Virus record (IMG/VR): IMGVR_UViG_3300018428_000086 | Span: 1-34,752 of that record | Strand: one strand, 5' to 3' | DNA: 34,752 nt | Origin: a virus | Part shown: piece by piece, positions 20,777 through 34,752 of the stretch | How positions within the stretch are numbered: position 1 is the first letter of the stretch | Layout of the letters: each line of letters begins with the position of its first letter | The notes under the pieces: generated by a model | The model's input: only the letters and a program-made list of their open reading frames with translations | What the model was told of the DNA's origin: nothing | Databases searched by the model: none | Made by a program: the position numbers and the translations under genes

Positions 20777-20795
20777 ATTTAATATTTTTCGCCAT

Positions 20796-20803
20796 GTTAA
20801 ATA
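20796..20803 (+). promoter_or_regulatory. T4-type late promoter
   Basis: GTTAAATA, five bases (ATTCC), ATG at 20809. It overlaps an upstream in-frame ATG at 20794, which is why that ATG is rejected as the start. Confidence 0.75.
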
Positions 20804-20808
20804 ATTCC

Positions 20809-21927
20809 ATGGGAATGAATAGAGACACATATTGTTCGCTGGCTACAGCAGGGTTTGACTACCGACAAGGGCACGTGTGTTGTCACATAAAATCTCAAAA
20901 CAAATTTGACAGCCATCATGCACTGAACAACGACAAGGAGTTAAAGACTCTCAGGGAAGATCTCGCGAATGGTATCAAAAATCCACTCTGCGATTTCTGT
21001 TGGACCTGTGAAAAAAACGGTGTTGTGTCTAAAAGACAGCAATTTTCAAAACACAAAACAGAAAGTGAGACAGAGGAGGAGAACCAAAGTAAACAATTGA
21101 AGCACCTCGTGATAGATTCCGGCAACGTATGCAACCTTGCCTGCAGAACCTGTCAGCCAGAAATCAGTTCTGGCTTGTGGATCGAGTTTCAAGCCAAACT
21201 TGGTGACAAGATGCTAGACAAAAAACCATACAAAAGGACTCCGGTAGAATCGATACTGGCTAACGACCTGACGCACCTAGAAACAATAGAGGTGCTGGGA
21301 GGCGAGCCCTTCAAAAACTTTGACCACTTGAATGTACTCGAACATCTAGTAGAGAAAGGCATGTCTAAAAAAATAAGCCTGGCCTACGTCACCAACGGGA
21401 CCGTGCCTGTGCCGGACAAGCTCAAAGAAATCTCCACGCATTTCAACAAGATAGATTTGTGTCTAAGCATTGACGCAACTGGTGACCTTTTTGAATATAT
21501 TAGGTCAAACGGCAGGTGGCACGACGTCGAAGAAAATTTGAAAGAAATGAAGGCACTCCAGAAAGAATCATGCTTCACTTTAATGATTGCACCCTCTATC
21601 AGTTGCCTAAACGTACTGCACCTACCCAAGCTCACAGAATGGTTGATGCAGAACAAGTTGGTATGGATGCTGAATTTTGTGGACACCCCACAGCATTACT
21701 CTTTCTCGATTTTTAATGCAGGACAGAAGGAATTCATAAAAGAAAAGTTGAGTGATCTCAAAATTGGCAAGGACACCGTGTGTAAGAAATTAGACGACTC
21801 TACCTTTGATAAAGGTGCAAGGGATAGATTCTACAAAGAGTTGGATTTTACAAAATCATTCAAAAAACTAGATCATGAAGTGTATCTTCAGGAACTATTA
21901 CATCTATTAAAAAACAAAGGAGGATAA
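20809..21927 (+). CDS. radical SAM protein with N-terminal Cys region
   Basis: 372 residues. The 4Fe-4S/SAM motif CNLACRTC gives Cys108, 112 and 115 in the CxxxCxxC spacing. GGEP near 164-167 is the SAM-binding glycine motif. An N-terminal region with CC near 24-25 and CDFCWTC near 61-67 could hold a second cluster, as in the phage proteins annotated as twitch-domain radical SAM. These enzymes make the 5'-deoxyadenosyl radical; the substrate is unknown. The gene is followed directly by a small coiled-coil gene. It is one of three such proteins in the window. Confidence 0.88.
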   Translation: MGMNRDTYCSLATAGFDYRQGHVCCHIKSQNKFDSHHALNNDKELKTLREDLANGIKNPLCDFCWTCEKNGVVSKRQQFSKHKTESETEEENQSKQLKHLVIDSGNVCNLACRTCQPEISSGLWIEFQAKLGDKMLDKKPYKRTPVESILANDLTHLETIEVLGGEPFKNFDHLNVLEHLVEKGMSKKISLAYVTNGTVPVPDKLKEISTHFNKIDLCLSIDATGDLFEYIRSNGRWHDVEENLKEMKALQKESCFTLMIAPSISCLNVLHLPKLTEWLMQNKLVWMLNFVDTPQHYSFSIFNAGQKEFIKEKLSDLKIGKDTVCKKLDDSTFDKGARDRFYKELDFTKSFKKLDHEVYLQELLHLLKNKGG

Positions 21928-25169: not shown

Positions 25170-25177
25170 TATAAATA
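25170..25177 (+). promoter_or_regulatory. perfect T4 late promoter TATAAATA
   Basis: TATAAATA, five bases (TGTGT), ATG at 25183. The reverse complement TATTTATA sits six bases before the divergent ATG at 25163, so it may also serve that gene. Confidence 0.8.
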
Positions 25178-25182
25178 TGTGT

Positions 25183-25749
25183 ATGCTAACACCATTTCTT
25201 AAGTATGTATCTGAGGGTAAAGTGATAAGACGGCATAATGACTTGCAGAGATTCACTTTTCCCGAAGTCACAGAGAGAATTTATCTGAGTTTCCTAGCAC
25301 TGGCCTTGATGAGTCAGTTGAAACAGACACAGTCTTTTACCAAAATGTACGCAGACCAGACAATGGCAAAGGGCACCTTTGACCAGGTGAGGATGATCAA
25401 CAATGATCTTGCAAACATGATGGCAATAGTGTCGGGAGACCCTGAAATCACTAAAAAACTCAAGAACAAGAACCAGGCACAGGCCATGAGGCAAAGGCAA
25501 ACATTGCCCGTGATGGCCGTGAGAAGATACCTCAGAAGTTTCGAAGATCATTATAGTAACCTTTCCATGCTGGAGAGGTCATTGAACATAAACGACGCCA
25601 ACTATCGTAACCTGCGCAGATCGGTGGCCAACTATGGTAATCTAGACAAACGGACAAAAAAACAAGTGATCGACAAAATAAATCAATATCTCAAATCAAA
25701 GTTGCCCAACACAGACATACAAAGAAAATTCAAGGAGATCAATGCCTAA
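25183..25749 (+). CDS. helical hypothetical protein, 188 residues
   Basis: The start at 25183 (MLTPFLKYVSEGKVIRRHND) is fixed by the perfect late promoter; a longer frame would overlap that promoter. The product is helical and basic, with many Gln, Asn, Arg and Met residues (KNKNQAQAMRQRQTLPVMAV). Not recognised; composition fits a virion or scaffold-associated protein. Its stop overlaps the first Cys-rich mini-gene (ATGCCTAA). Confidence 0.72.
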   Translation: MLTPFLKYVSEGKVIRRHNDLQRFTFPEVTERIYLSFLALALMSQLKQTQSFTKMYADQTMAKGTFDQVRMINNDLANMMAIVSGDPEITKKLKNKNQAQAMRQRQTLPVMAVRRYLRSFEDHYSNLSMLERSLNINDANYRNLRRSVANYGNLDKRTKKQVIDKINQYLKSKLPNTDIQRKFKEINA

Positions 25750-25873
25750 GAGAGAAGAACGATGCCACAGGTGTTCTTGTGAGCGGCACTGTGATGAAGA
25801 ATGCAAGAACTGTGAGAACTGTGAGACCTGTGACTGTTTGAAATGTTTGCAGAGATTCAACCCTGTGGGGTAG
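25742..25873 (+). CDS. Cys-rich metallothionein-like mini-protein 1
   Basis: 43 residues with ten Cys. From residue 11 it follows the spacing CxCExHCx3CxxCxxCxxCxCxxC, shared exactly with the next mini-protein. The remainder is charged (Lys, Glu, Arg). Dense Cys in CxC and CxxC steps with almost no hydrophobic core is typical of metal-binding (Zn/Cu/Cd or Fe-S) peptides. The ATG overlaps the upstream stop, so it is translated by coupling. Alternatives are a disulphide-rich peptide or a zinc-knuckle regulator. Confidence 0.72.
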   Translation: MPKREERCHRCSCERHCDEECKNCENCETCDCLKCLQRFNPVG

Positions 25874-25880
25874 TTAAATA
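25873..25880 (+). promoter_or_regulatory. T4-type late promoter
   Basis: GTTAAATA, five bases (ACAGC), ATG at 25886. It begins on the last base of the upstream stop codon. Confidence 0.75.
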
Positions 25881-25885
25881 ACAGC

Positions 25886-26002
25886 ATGATTGAATGTGTA
25901 TGTGAATGTGGTTGTGAACACCACTGTGAGAGATCGTGTGCAGAGTGCCTCGATTGTCCTGACTGCATGTGTAAATGCTGTAAAGAAGAACAAAAATCCT
26001 AA
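25886..26002 (+). CDS. Cys-rich metallothionein-like mini-protein 2
   Basis: 38 residues with twelve Cys, including CVCECGC near the start and CMCKCC near the end. Aligns with mini-protein 1 over 25 residues without a gap, matching every shared cysteine plus the E and H of CxCExHC. Has its own late promoter at the leaderless spacing, so its dosage can differ from mini-protein 1. Function not known; metal binding is inferred from the cysteine pattern. Confidence 0.72.
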   Translation: MIECVCECGCEHHCERSCAECLDCPDCMCKCCKEEQKS

Positions 26003-26101: not shown

Positions 26102-26512
26102 ATGGCAATAAGTGAAAACAACACAACTCACGTAGCATCAGGTGAATTTTTAGGTAAAGACCTTGAGTTCTTGAACCAAACATTCCCAAGTTCTGTTGCG
26201 GCTAAGACGGCCAAAGACAGCACCATTGATGTGGTTGAGAAAACAATCCAAATCTACGCAAACATCGTAGGTGCGGGTCCGTTGGTTAACTCAAACGTAG
26301 AAAAGAACTACATAATTGAGGGCACTGACCAATTCGTAGGATCACCAGCAAGTGCAGGTGGTACTTTTACATTAACAACAAGTTCTGCAAACGCAACAGC
26401 AGGAACTTTGGCCACAGCAGTACAGGCCTTAGGAACTGTTGACTCTATCGACATGGGTTCAGAAACGTCTTTCGTTACTAACCTTGCGATGAGAAAAGCG
26501 ACGTTAGAGTAA
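26102..26512 (+). CDS. abundant late protein, paralogue 1 of 3
   Basis: 136 residues with AAGGAGG ahead. Begins MAISENN and has FLGKDLEFLNQTF near residue 16. The rest is Ala/Thr/Ser/Gly-rich with few charged or aromatic residues and no Cys, like a virion surface or fibre protein. The strong promoter, 5' hairpin, good ribosome-binding site and terminator suggest high expression. The same N-terminal plan recurs in the next two genes. Structural role is inference; it is not a recognised T4 protein. Confidence 0.72.
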   Translation: MAISENNTTHVASGEFLGKDLEFLNQTFPSSVAAKTAKDSTIDVVEKTIQIYANIVGAGPLVNSNVEKNYIIEGTDQFVGSPASAGGTFTLTTSSANATAGTLATAVQALGTVDSIDMGSETSFVTNLAMRKATLE

Positions 26513-26534: not shown

Positions 26535-26933
26535 ATGCCAATTTCTAAAAATAACTTTGCAATTAACTTGAACAACGAGTTTGAGGGAGTAGATGTTGCA
26601 TTCTTAACAGTTGACTACATCAATCCCATGAACGCGGAGACTACTGATCCATTAGCAACTGCCAACACGGCCGGCCTTGCGTTAGTCGAAGAGGCAATCC
26701 AAAACCAAGGTGTGAACATCATTGGTAAGGGTGGTCTTGCTGTCGGTAACACAGAGGTGACTTACATGGTGAGAGCGGACGCTCTTGACACTATAAGTTC
26801 AACGACTACTGTGGCGGCTATCCAATCAGCGATCCAGGCGCTTAACTCAAACTCAAAAATCACAGCAACTATTTCAAGTGCAACAGTGACATCGAACACA
26901 ACAGGTGCTTCGGACACTGGTGTAAATGCTTAA
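26535..26933 (+). CDS. abundant late protein, paralogue 2 of 3
   Basis: 132 residues, AAGGAGAC ahead. Begins MPISKNN with FEGVDVAFLTVDY in the place of FLGKDLEFLNQTF of paralogue 1. Ser/Thr/Ala/Asn-rich C-terminal half (STTTVAAIQSAIQALNSNSK). Separated by 22 bases from paralogue 1 and 26 from paralogue 3, each with its own ribosome-binding site. Confidence 0.72.
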   Translation: MPISKNNFAINLNNEFEGVDVAFLTVDYINPMNAETTDPLATANTAGLALVEEAIQNQGVNIIGKGGLAVGNTEVTYMVRADALDTISSTTTVAAIQSAIQALNSNSKITATISSATVTSNTTGASDTGVNA

Positions 26934-30666: not shown

Positions 30667-31023
30667 GTGAGATTTAACGAATTCAAGAACACGGACGGCG
30701 ACATGGAAGCGGCACTGATCAACGTGCTGATGAACATGAAGGGCGACGCTGACGAGAAGGACCAACCATCAGACATCAGCATGGACGCAGTGAAACAAAT
30801 CATGAGCAACACGGGTTACCCGGCGTTCAACTATGACGTGTTCAAAAGGATCTATGACCAGGACGGTGACCTGCAGAACGTAGTAGCAGACTTTGACCAA
30901 GAGAAGATAGTGATCAAGACCGACGCAGAAGCAGAGAAGGATCCTGCCATGGACTTCGACAACCAAGGGTCGACAGACGTGGTTAAGAAGATGGCCAAGT
31001 CAGCCATGAACAGACGAAAGTAA
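30667..31023 (+). CDS. hypothetical protein, 118 residues
   Basis: GTG start five bases after the upstream stop with GGGGAAG as ribosome-binding site. Acidic N-terminus, a central SMDAVKQIMSNTGYPAFNYD stretch followed by FKRIYDQDGDLQNVVADFDQ, and a basic end (KKMAKSAMNRRK). From memory the centre resembles a recurrent unknown in marine T4-like phages. Cotranscribed with the acidic coiled-coil gene. Confidence 0.68.
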   Translation: MRFNEFKNTDGDMEAALINVLMNMKGDADEKDQPSDISMDAVKQIMSNTGYPAFNYDVFKRIYDQDGDLQNVVADFDQEKIVIKTDAEAEKDPAMDFDNQGSTDVVKKMAKSAMNRRK

Positions 31024-31038: not shown

Positions 31039-31455
31039 ATGGATAAATTGATAGAGCTCGAGCTCGAGACGTATGCGACGGGACTGATATCATCGGACCA
31101 ATACCATGGCAAACCCGTTGTGGTTTTCAATTCTGCAAGTTTTTGTGGATTCACAAACCAGATAGAAAATTTCCAACAAATGTTTTCTCAAGGACAAATT
31201 GTGCCTGTGGCCCTCCCCACAAACGAATTTGGGGGTCAGGATCCAGGTGACAATTACGAAATACAGCAATTTCTACAGAACAGGTATGCGGTGCAGTTTC
31301 CTGTCTGTCTTAAGACTGATCTCAACCATGTACTGTTTCAAAAATATGGAAAGCCGGACTGGAATTTTAACAAGTATCTATTTGATCGAGAACACAACTT
31401 TGTTGCAAAGTTTGAAAGCAATACCACACCCGAGGAACTACTGACTCATGTCTAA
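31039..31455 (+). CDS. glutathione-peroxidase-like protein
   Basis: 138 residues, somewhat shorter than the usual 155-165. KPVVVFNSASFCGFTNQIEN holds the peroxidatic Cys36 in the ASxCGxT setting. TNEFGGQDPGDNYEIQQFL replaces the usual CNQFGGQEPG, so the active-site Gln is Glu63. DWNFNKYLFDR keeps the active-site Trp108 and Asn109. Family members reduce hydroperoxides using glutathione or thioredoxin. Cys90 might be a resolving cysteine but is not in the usual place. The stop overlaps the radical SAM gene by eight bases (ATGTCTAA), so the two proteins are probably made together. Confidence 0.85.
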   Translation: MDKLIELELETYATGLISSDQYHGKPVVVFNSASFCGFTNQIENFQQMFSQGQIVPVALPTNEFGGQDPGDNYEIQQFLQNRYAVQFPVCLKTDLNHVLFQKYGKPDWNFNKYLFDREHNFVAKFESNTTPEELLTHV

Positions 31456-32740
31456 TACACCAAAAACTTTTTGTAACTATCCTTGGAAGCATCTGTACGT
31501 TCAGACCACAGGACACTTTAAGGTGTGTTGCCTGTCTCCGGAACACATCACAAAGAACGACGGGTATCACCAATACAACCTGTCAAAAGATAAAATTTCA
31601 GACAGTTGGAACAGCAATTACATGATAGAAACCAGAAAGAAAATGCTGGCGGGTGAAAGGCTAGATATCTGTAAGAGGTGCTATGACCTCGAGGACAGAG
31701 GTATCAAAAGCATGAGAAACGTGAAAGACTACGAACATTACAATGCAATCACAGTGGATGGCAAAGTCAATAACAAAATAGAACAACTAGAACTACACTT
31801 TGGAAATGTTTGTAACCTTGCCTGCAAGATGTGTAGCCAGCAATACAGTCACAAGATAGGAGAAGAGTTATTAAAGATAGGTGACAAAGAGCCCGGATTT
31901 GTTGAATGGCTCAAGAAGCAAGGTGGTGTGGTGAACAACTGGACATCTGAATTGGGAATAGTTTATGACTGGTTCAAAAACCCAAAAACAAAGAATGACA
32001 TCTTCAACTACGTAAGTGATAATGTCAGTGACCTCAATGTTGTTGGCGGCGAGCCAACTGCAATCAAGGAGTTCTATGAATTGTTGGAATTTTGTTTTCA
32101 AAAAGACACTCTACAAAAAAAGACAGTCACCTTGACGACTAATCTGACCAACACCAATCCAAAAATGATCACTTGGCTGAAGAAAGTTAAAATGATGGGC
32201 ATTTATGGTAGTGTGGACGGAATAGGAGATGTCAATGACTACATCCGCTACCCTTCAAAATGGCCAGTTATTGAAAGGTCTTTGAAGTTCTACGCTGACA
32301 TTATGAAAACTAATGACAGGTGCAGGATGACCATAGGACCAACCTTTCAGTCGCTTAACATACACAGCGTGGTTGACACAGTGCATTACGTGGAACAGTT
32401 CGAAAAGCAACATGATATTGCGGTGGATGTATGGTGGACCGGTGTAGTGACTGGGCCTCGGATCTGTGACTATTCTGTTTTGCCTGACGAGTACAAGAAG
32501 TCCGTGGCAAAAAAACTACAAGATTCACTACATAAAGTGGATAAAGTTGACAACAAAAAACAAATTGAATCGCATATTAAATCTTTACACGAAAGCAACG
32601 ACAAGTCAATGCCATTCAAAAAAGAGACCTTACAGAGTTTCATCAAATACAACGACCTACAAGACAAACATCGTGCCGGGATCACCTGGAGAAACTTGCT
32701 CCCTGGTCTTGAAAAATCGATAGATAGTTTTTTAGGCTAG
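31448..32740 (+). CDS. twitch-type radical SAM protein
   Basis: 430 residues. CNLACKMC gives Cys122, 126 and 129 for the 4Fe-4S cluster, and GGEP is at 200-203. An N-terminal module FCNYPWKHLYVQTTGHFKVC with CC at 27-28 and CKRC at 75-78 is the kind found in phage proteins annotated twitch-domain radical SAM, and may hold an auxiliary cluster. Substrate unknown. Its coupling to a thiol peroxidase is the strongest clue. The stop overlaps the convergent gene's stop in the shared CTAG. Confidence 0.9.
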   Translation: MSNTPKTFCNYPWKHLYVQTTGHFKVCCLSPEHITKNDGYHQYNLSKDKISDSWNSNYMIETRKKMLAGERLDICKRCYDLEDRGIKSMRNVKDYEHYNAITVDGKVNNKIEQLELHFGNVCNLACKMCSQQYSHKIGEELLKIGDKEPGFVEWLKKQGGVVNNWTSELGIVYDWFKNPKTKNDIFNYVSDNVSDLNVVGGEPTAIKEFYELLEFCFQKDTLQKKTVTLTTNLTNTNPKMITWLKKVKMMGIYGSVDGIGDVNDYIRYPSKWPVIERSLKFYADIMKTNDRCRMTIGPTFQSLNIHSVVDTVHYVEQFEKQHDIAVDVWWTGVVTGPRICDYSVLPDEYKKSVAKKLQDSLHKVDKVDNKKQIESHIKSLHESNDKSMPFKKETLQSFIKYNDLQDKHRAGITWRNLLPGLEKSIDSFLG

Positions 32741-34041
32741 AGGTTTTCTAAAAGTCTTGCTATCTGAGGGTATATTTTAGTGAAATCAGTTCCACGCCTG
32801 CGGTCAAGTTCGGTTAGGTATATCTTGAACTGCTTCTGTCGTTCAAGGCTTGGTTCACGTTGATCAAATTCTATCATGTTTCCCTGCATGAACTTTTTGT
32901 GGTTCTGCTTCACTGAATCCTCAAAGCCGTCTGTCTTCGTTTCAAACATATCTACTGCTTCTCTGAGTCCCCAGTCATTGATCTTACTGCCAAAGATGCC
33001 CGGATACATGTAAGGCCTGGGCGGTTGGTCATGTTGGTTTGCTTTCATCATGCTCCAGTAGATAGGTTTGACTTCCTTGGACCACTTGTTGATGTGCCTG
33101 ACCATCTCTGGCATTCCAGGCACGGCGGTCACAGTCAGTGCAGAGTTGATTGCCTGGTCTATGTCTGTGTTGTACAGCAGATGTTTGAAATTACCCAGGG
33201 CCACATTCAAGTCTAGTCCTGTCCTGACGTACTCACCTTCTTTGCCAAATGCATCACAACTGAAGAAAATTTGTACCTTGTCCAGCCTGCCACTTTTGTT
33301 GAGTCTGTCCAGCCTGTCCGTCCAGTTCTTGAACCTTTCGGATTCGATGTTGTGGTTGCTGAAAAAGACCAGAGTAAGGTCTGGATAATTGCCTTTCTCC
33401 AGAAGTTCTATAAATCTGAAAGTTTCTTTTTGTAAGAAAGGCTCTCCCCCCATAACAAACACCTTGTGTAGGTGCTGTAGATTTTTGTCTAACCATTTGA
33501 ACAACAACTCTGTATGCTCCTCGATCTTTGGATTCATCCGCCAGTTGTCGTAGTCCAGGTACACCCCGTCTTTCTTGAAGTAACCAAATCTCTTTTCTTC
33601 TTGATGTATCATGGAACTGTAGTGTGCGTCGCAGTATATACATTTTTGGTTGCAAGTGTTACCCCAGTATATTTCCAACTGCCTTGGTGTAACGTCGACC
33701 GCCTCCAGATCATTATCAAGCTCGGGCGGTGCTGTGGTCCCCTCGAGGTTAAGGTGTATCATTCTGTCGCTTGTTCCACCAGCATCTTCGATGTGTTTAC
33801 AGTGTTCACACCCATTGCCCGGCCATTCACCGCGCAACATCTTTCGCCTGGCCTCTAACTTGGCAGGCAGGTTATGGAAATTCAACTCACCATTACGAAC
33901 TTCAAGTGGATCCTGATTGACCCTATGGCAACTTGAACTGCCACCATCGGTAAGGTACACCGTGCTATGTGTCCACTTGAGCTGGCAAGGAAGTCCTTTT
34001 TTGATGGGAAAAGGTTTAGGGGGTTGATCTGATATACTCAT
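32737..34041 (-). CDS. radical SAM protein
   Basis: 434 residues from the ATG at 34041 (MSISDQPPKPFPIKKGLPCQ); the frame is open well upstream but covers the divergent nuclease gene. CNQKCIYC gives Cys130, 134 and 137, followed by FVMGGEPFLQKE as the SAM-binding GGEP. The N-terminal Cys at 19 and 38 and CEHC at 78-81 parallel the other two proteins. Substrate unknown. Its late promoter element at 34047-34054 is shared with the divergent nuclease gene. Confidence 0.9.
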   Translation of the reverse strand: MSISDQPPKPFPIKKGLPCQLKWTHSTVYLTDGGSSSCHRVNQDPLEVRNGELNFHNLPAKLEARRKMLRGEWPGNGCEHCKHIEDAGGTSDRMIHLNLEGTTAPPELDNDLEAVDVTPRQLEIYWGNTCNQKCIYCDAHYSSMIHQEEKRFGYFKKDGVYLDYDNWRMNPKIEEHTELLFKWLDKNLQHLHKVFVMGGEPFLQKETFRFIELLEKGNYPDLTLVFFSNHNIESERFKNWTDRLDRLNKSGRLDKVQIFFSCDAFGKEGEYVRTGLDLNVALGNFKHLLYNTDIDQAINSALTVTAVPGMPEMVRHINKWSKEVKPIYWSMMKANQHDQPPRPYMYPGIFGSKINDWGLREAVDMFETKTDGFEDSVKQNHKKFMQGNMIEFDQREPSLERQKQFKIYLTELDRRRGTDFTKIYPQIARLLENL

Positions 34042-34046
34042 TATTG

Positions 34047-34054
34047 TATAATTA
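34047..34054. promoter_or_regulatory. shared bidirectional late promoter
   Basis: TATAATTA on plus and TAATTATA on minus are the same eight bases. Rightward, five bases (TCTAC) lead to the ATG at 34060. Leftward, five bases (CAATA) lead to the ATG at 34041. Confidence 0.6.
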
Positions 34055-34059
34055 TCTAC

Positions 34060-34752
34060 ATGAAAATACCCGAAAACGTTCTTAAGAACAAAGGCATAGC
34101 CTACGTTCAGAAGTATCCATATGGTGAGCTCAACAGGCAGAGCAAGAACGGCAAGCGACATTACCAAACGCCCGACGGCAGGTTGGTGCCCAGCGTGACC
34201 ACGGTGTTGAGCGCCACAAAAGACATGACACATCTCAACGCATGGAAAAAACGCATAGGAGAGGCAAAAGCACAACAGATTGCAACAGAGTCGGCCAACA
34301 TAGGAACCGTGATGCACCGTAGCCTCGAGAAGCATGTGAAAGGCGAGGACAGGACCCCGGGATCGAATCTCATACAGCAGAAGGCACACACGATGGCCAA
34401 TGTGATAATTGACAATGGATTAAAGGACATCAGTGAGGTATGGGGATCAGAAGTGTCATTACACTACCCAGAACTGTACGCTGGAACGACAGATCTAGTT
34501 GCGGTTTACAAGGGCCAACCGGCCATATGTGACTTCAAACAGTCGAGGAAGCTCAAGAAGAAGGAGTGGATAGAAGATTACTTCATGCAGTTGGTCGCCT
34601 ACAGCGAGGCACACAACAAGGTGTATGACACCAACATCAAGGCCGGACGTGTGTTTATATGCACACAGAACAACGAATTCCAGACATTCGAGATAGACAA
34701 CTACGACCACTGGACCAGCGAGTGGTACAAGAAGTTGGAGCAATACTACAAG
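34060..34752 (+). CDS. PD-(D/E)XK nuclease, 3' truncated by window edge
   Basis: 231 codons to the edge with no stop. GTVMHRSLEKHV near residues 82-93 is the alpha-helical motif of RecB/Cas4-like nucleases, and YAGTTDLVAVYKGQPAICDF followed by KQS carries the Asp and D-x-K catalytic residues. YFMQLVAYSEAHN (QxxxY-like) completes the pattern. Such enzymes act as DNA exonucleases in replication, recombination or host DNA breakdown. Start chosen from the shared late promoter. Late expression would be a departure from typical recombination exonucleases. Confidence 0.85.
   Translation, partial: MKIPENVLKNKGIAYVQKYPYGELNRQSKNGKRHYQTPDGRLVPSVTTVLSATKDMTHLNAWKKRIGEAKAQQIATESANIGTVMHRSLEKHVKGEDRTPGSNLIQQKAHTMANVIIDNGLKDISEVWGSEVSLHYPELYAGTTDLVAVYKGQPAICDFKQSRKLKKKEWIEDYFMQLVAYSEAHNKVYDTNIKAGRVFICTQNNEFQTFEIDNYDHWTSEWYKKLEQYYK

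Follow-up and report, generated by a model that had tools for sequence, protein, structure and literature searches.

Genes A and B and the unit they belong to

We analysed a viral DNA sequence of 34,752 nucleotides (IMG/VR record IMGVR_UViG_3300018428_000086), referred to in its whole length as the window. It contains two adjacent genes, A and B, encoding very short proteins in which 23-32% of the residues are cysteines (Table 1). In A, these occupy positions 8, 11, 13, 17, 21, 24, 27, 30, 32 and 35. The frame CxCExHCx3CxxCxxCxxCxCxxC runs through both open reading frames without a gap, at an overall identity of the two proteins of 34%, as the initial annotation of this sequence had described. 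A scan of the window with a shortened version of the frame returned two matches on the + strand, none on the - strand and, as a control, none when the pattern was read backwards. The first cysteine lies close to the initial methionine (residue 8 in A, residue 4 in B), leaving little space for a signal or leader peptide; proteins of this kind are probably cytosolic.

Table 1. Features of the A/B locus, in coordinates of the window
Feature	Position	Strand	Remarks
TATAAATA, T4-type late-promoter-like box	25170..25177	+	5 nt before the ATG of the upstream gene
Upstream gene	25183..25749	+	188 aa; start chosen by alignment with homologues
AAGGAG, ribosome-binding site of A	25732..25737	+	Within the 3' end of the upstream gene
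Gene A	25742..25873	+	43 aa; 10 Cys and ligand His16; subfamily A
Gene B	25886..26002	+	38 aa; 12 Cys, ligand His13; subfamily B

Coupling of A to the gene upstream, likewise proposed before, was confirmed: the two overlap by 8 nt, and AAGGAG, retained in many relatives, ends 4 nt 5' of the ATG of A. Only 12 nt separate the stop codon of A from the start of B, and the upstream gene is the first gene of a coupled unit with both. Its product has no Pfam or PHROG match above the cut-off and no tblastn match among 50,697 phage records.

The box TATAAATA is found at the same distance before the upstream gene in 78 of 80 loci retrieved through that gene. These loci comprise 44 distinct upstream sequences, so that the box is kept while its surroundings vary; within the window, near-matches to it are no more numerous than expected by chance. 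The box is the probable promoter of the unit formed by the upstream gene, A and B. Transcripts starting from it would be nearly leaderless. B had been credited with a late promoter of its own, which our data do not support. The sequence preceding B, GTTAAATA, differs from TATAAATA by more than one mismatch, and no box precedes B in any of 18 tandem loci. Since the box stands before the upstream gene and none stands before B, the simplest reading is that the pair belongs to a single late, coupled unit.

Family size and distribution

Neither A nor B alone is long enough to serve as a query. We therefore searched IMG/VR with degenerate DNA patterns of the frame, which was also the check that the initial annotation had suggested. 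After removal of poly-Cys matches, at least 302 copies in at least 265 loci were found. Two of the three patterns required the histidine codon; the pattern without it was swamped by low-complexity cysteine runs. A pattern for a further subfamily gave 100 stretches, and a later tally, in which some contigs are counted twice, reached at least 371 copies and 190 different cores.

A search of 84,980 cellular genomes yielded a single true member (L294), on a short phage-like contig within a Betaproteobacterium MAG, where the neighbouring genes are the same too. Of 18 contigs from the genome collections, 16 were dismissed as low-complexity or unrelated (Actinomadura) and one because it holds no readable frame. 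In the collections searched, IMG/VR and cellular genomes, the exact frame is thus restricted to phages. When B- and D-type proteins were compared by tblastn with the 50,697 phage records no match was obtained, a search in which the low-complexity filter may mask cysteine-rich queries. Members are mostly 33-62 residues long (about 35-60), and some longer proteins of subfamilies D and W contain less than 20% cysteine overall. The family is large, previously unnamed and phage-restricted.

Conservation of the ligand frame

In an alignment of 141 diverse members, only eleven columns are invariant, ten of them cysteines and one a histidine, at a mean column identity of 31%. The family frame reads C-x(1,2)-C-x-C-x2-H-C-x3-C-x2-C-x2-C-x2-C-x-C-x2-C. 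Nine of the cysteines and the histidine are imposed by the search pattern, and their invariance in members found by pattern proves nothing. The first cysteine lies outside the pattern, and yet 217 of the 218 different proteins have it.

The 80 loci retrieved through the upstream gene provide an unbiased test. One or two family genes occupy the slot in 61 of them, whereas 19 lack these genes precisely. No ligand is lost in any of the 61. The sole change is a one-residue insertion in A (x3 to x4), which occurs in six loci, within one A subclade. Neither a lack of homologues nor a disrupted frame was found, and the earlier view that selection acts on the cysteine frame of these tandem paralogues is borne out. 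A profile search of the fetched loci added seven sequences outside the strict frame, five of them with the same insertion in A. The sixth is a related variant (L096) that has this insertion too, in another setting, and the seventh, the distant relative L506, carries histidine for one cysteine and one lengthened spacing.

We conclude that A and B are real genes sharing an exact frame. The frame is no product of chance, since it recurs in hundreds of phage contigs, includes an invariant cysteine outside the search pattern and is also found in loci fetched through the upstream gene.

Between the ligands, F, I, V, M and L each make up mostly about 1% of the core or less, leaving almost no hydrophobic core. 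Aromatic residues do occur, namely a conserved Trp in W, a Tyr in D and others in the flanks. Subfamily A has a median net charge of +1, and the medians of B, D and W are negative. Flanking motifs are conserved inside subfamilies (MDDYxxYKRxT in D, LQRFxxDG in A, MIKYI in B). The near-absence of hydrophobic residues from the core and the first ligand close to Met1, together with the Cys-to-His replacement in L506, which is an exchange between metal ligands, point to metal-thiolate clusters.

Ancient paralogues as accessory genes

On a tree of the 141 short sequences, A and B fall into separate groups (support 47 for A, 100 for B and 98 for W), indicating that the duplication predates these phages; judged by their sequences, A and B are ancient paralogues. 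In relatives the two genes usually overlap or almost abut, an arrangement of translational coupling; L104 and L197 have a fusion of both in a single frame.

The slot of the A/B type has a regular order: a virion protein (phrog_11854), DUF6267, a gene on the opposite strand, the upstream gene, A and B, usually followed by an FkbM-type methyltransferase and repeated small genes. The name FkbM-type was read from the sequence, and the gene matches a PHROG methyltransferase. It is missing from the window and present in all 19 loci devoid of the cysteine-rich genes, which marks the latter as accessory cargo. The methyltransferase was considered as a partner of A and B and rejected, because it is present with or without them and merely shares the slot. 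In seven loci (L058, L139, L171, L175, L195, L207 and L223), an A-type cysteine domain is in frame with an FkbM-type methyltransferase-like protein. Directly after B, the window holds tandem paralogues of another kind (cluster 0; 26102-26512 and 26535-26933), which recur in 92 fetched loci, often in several copies. No Fe-S gene was found in the slot of the A/B subfamily.

Genomic contexts of other subfamilies

Other subfamilies reside between head and tail genes or near nuclease genes. Many of the contexts belong to structural modules: the family gene has a head protein (phrog_11591) on one side and a tail sheath or sheath stabiliser (phrog_11196, phrog_227) on the other, is close to a head-closure gene (phrog_218), or is only a few genes away from a virion protein and DUF6267. 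Such placement would suit a late component of the virion or of its assembly, which is packaged or aids folding of a structural protein, and so would the late-promoter-like box. We consider this role improbable: the gene is accessory, as its precise absence from 19 of 80 loci demonstrates, it is found flanked by nrdA and nrdB and next to IscU as well, and a place among late genes reflects timing rather than function. The gp23 gene was detected in 4 of 12 long records searched, none of them of the A/B type.

A different association emerged with genes of iron and Fe-S metabolism. In L124, the family gene is located between nrdA and thioredoxin-nrdB; Dps-like genes lie near it in L147, L196, L205 and L262; and IscU or A-type carriers adjoin it in several arrangements. 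IscU and A-type carriers were verified by Pfam search of whole records, as was nrdA in other records, while thioredoxin, nrdB and Dps-like are names read from sequences.

Adjacency was assessed in 32 long records with a distance limit of 1.5 kb. A family gene lies within this limit of IscU in 4 of the 6 records holding IscU (0.39 expected); for A-type carriers the count is 13 of 16 (0.99 expected), and for either gene it is 14 of the 17 records that contain one or both of them. Ten of the 13 records with a neighbouring A-type carrier have the same gene arrangement and were counted as a single lineage. After collapsing by lineage, 4 of 7 remain for either gene against 0.45 expected, with p about 0.0006. 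This value is optimistic, because some contexts were already familiar when the records were selected manually by length, and a few contigs that were about as long were omitted. As controls, PhoH and RNR genes were within 1.5 kb of a family gene in 0 of 5 and 0 of 10 records, respectively.

Radical SAM genes, the third control, were as near in 0 of 22 records, against 3.2 expected. This bears on another option listed in the initial annotation, that A and B are precursor peptides for the radical SAM enzymes, which would make them RiPP-like, of the sactipeptide type. Such enzymes are at hand in the window, one identified by Pfam (20794-21927) and two that cluster with it in sequence (31448-32740 and 32737-34389), and in L066 three open reading frames of the radical SAM cluster directly follow the family gene. 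Nevertheless, besides the missing adjacency, there is no leader peptide, the frame is retained in full whatever the context, and fused and duplicated forms exist, all of which makes a precursor role very improbable.

Seen from the side of IscU, the link is weak: among 80 phage loci with this gene, L506 alone has a family member at a distance of up to 4 kb, and IscU is thus not dependent on the family. Phage C48C1 possesses IscU with no family gene nearby. An IscU record labelled 'Acinetobacter phage' was set aside, its isc operon being bacterial-looking. At least about 600 viral contigs encode IscU near the phage type, and the aligned phage-type sequences keep the LPPVK motif, by which IscU binds HscA.

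In L170, L351 and L352, IscU is situated between the gene families represented in the window at 30667-31023 and 34060; between these flanking families, L170 and L351 have A-type carriers as well. The same position in the window (31039-34752) is filled by radical SAM genes and a glutathione-peroxidase-like gene. The window region and its counterparts in the three loci represent a single cargo slot, in which redox genes are exchangeable.

A putative metal-thiolate protein

The reading we favour, with modest confidence, is that the family comprises phage-specific, metallothionein-like metal-thiolate proteins with eleven ligands, which may handle metal in the late phase of infection, perhaps on behalf of iron or Fe-S enzymes. 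Several metal ions, with Zn(II), Fe(II) or Cu(I) as candidates, would be wrapped by the ten thiolates and the imidazole, and eleven ligands would suit a four-metal cluster. The metal could then be buffered or handed over late in infection. Iron or Fe-S proteins would probably be the clients in those subfamilies that adjoin IscU, A-type carriers, ribonucleotide reductase or Dps-like genes. Metal binding, its stoichiometry, the identity of the metal and delivery are predicted here from sequence and neighbourhood.

A more specific version, in which the protein is a metallochaperone of T4-like and related phages that holds iron or an Fe-S cluster and passes it to phage IscU, A-type carriers, radical SAM enzymes and ribonucleotide reductase, seems to us rather unlikely. 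Neighbourhood gives some support to an Fe-S or iron role in certain subfamilies; the slot of the A/B subfamily, devoid of Fe-S genes, lends it none for the pair. Of the metal or Fe-S role envisaged earlier for A and B, the probable involvement with metal stands and the Fe-S adjacency holds for other subfamilies, while for the pair itself an Fe-S link would be conjectural.

We thus regard the family as real, new and phage-restricted, and most likely metallothionein-like in its action. A common, unannotated family with an invariant ligand frame would mean that many phages bring along a metal-handling protein in addition to their metalloenzymes. Should its clients be Fe-S or iron proteins, phage replication would be tied to trace-metal supply. 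The frame also offers a search signature for tiny genes missed by profile libraries.

Comparison with known families and structures

The 141 members have no convincing match in Pfam, PHROG or NCBIfam, in agreement with the earlier statement that they fit no known zinc-finger or metallothionein consensus. The best PHROG match (E 0.0066) is to a family hit by two members, and the family profile matched PDB sequences at E 0.23 or worse. AlphaFold models are of moderate quality (pLDDT 79 for A and 70 for B) and display a short C-terminal helix and no metal geometry; Foldseek and VIA-align searches with them gave no usable fold match.

T4-like marine phage genomes have an established set of phage IscU, A-type carrier and up to 12 radical SAM genes (PMC5332604). 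The text of that study does not mention cysteine-rich proteins or metallothionein, and our literature search yielded no paper joining metallothionein with viral auxiliary genes. The phages concerned are similar, and such genes adjoin some members of the family, which is itself neither IscU nor an A-type carrier. Bacterial-type ferredoxins differ as well: in place of their CxxCxxCxxxCP the family has CxxCxxCxxCxC, and none of the 141 members matches the Pfam ferredoxins.

A partial resemblance exists to the CCHC zinc knuckle, whose spacing CX2CX4HX4C is present in subfamilies A and W and in most of B. It suggests a structural zinc mini-domain of zinc-knuckle or treble-clef style with extra cysteines, binding protein or nucleic acid, for example as a small regulator or assembly factor with the flanking motifs as docking parts. 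Weak PDB profile matches to zinc knuckles (E 0.3-0.7), flanking motifs conserved per subfamily and the seven A genes in frame with a methyltransferase-like protein are consistent with it. Still, the spacing is broken in most of D, where the first pair is CxC, and in B of the window; no member matches the zf-CCHC profile of Pfam at E 0.1 (0 of 141); and there is no fold match. Seven additional cysteines are conserved, bringing the ligands to eleven, more than would be required for one or two zinc sites. Nor is the majority of members basic, their net charges being unlike those of typical nucleic-acid binders. A zinc mini-domain is therefore, in our view, a doubtful explanation.

The metal-thiolate reading finds its nearest parallel in metallothioneins, such as the SmtA type and the vertebrate alpha and beta domains. 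Against it stands that no member matched any metallothionein family by sequence (141 members against Pfam and NCBIfam), and we know of no metallothionein with this ligand spacing. With sequence membership failing and metal binding only putative, the family is not filed as metallothionein. A and B of the window nonetheless fall within the size and cysteine limits used for metallothioneins (<100 residues, >=20% Cys) and share with them tiny size and CxC/CxxC pairs. The family as a whole has almost no hydrophobic core, and its non-ligand residues vary freely. Cyanobacterial SmtA binds a four-metal cluster with eleven ligands, and eleven, the number generally given for four-metal metallothionein clusters, is also the number of conserved ligands here. 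What sets the family apart from metallothioneins is its restriction to phages, its conserved flanking motifs and its tandem coupled paralogues.
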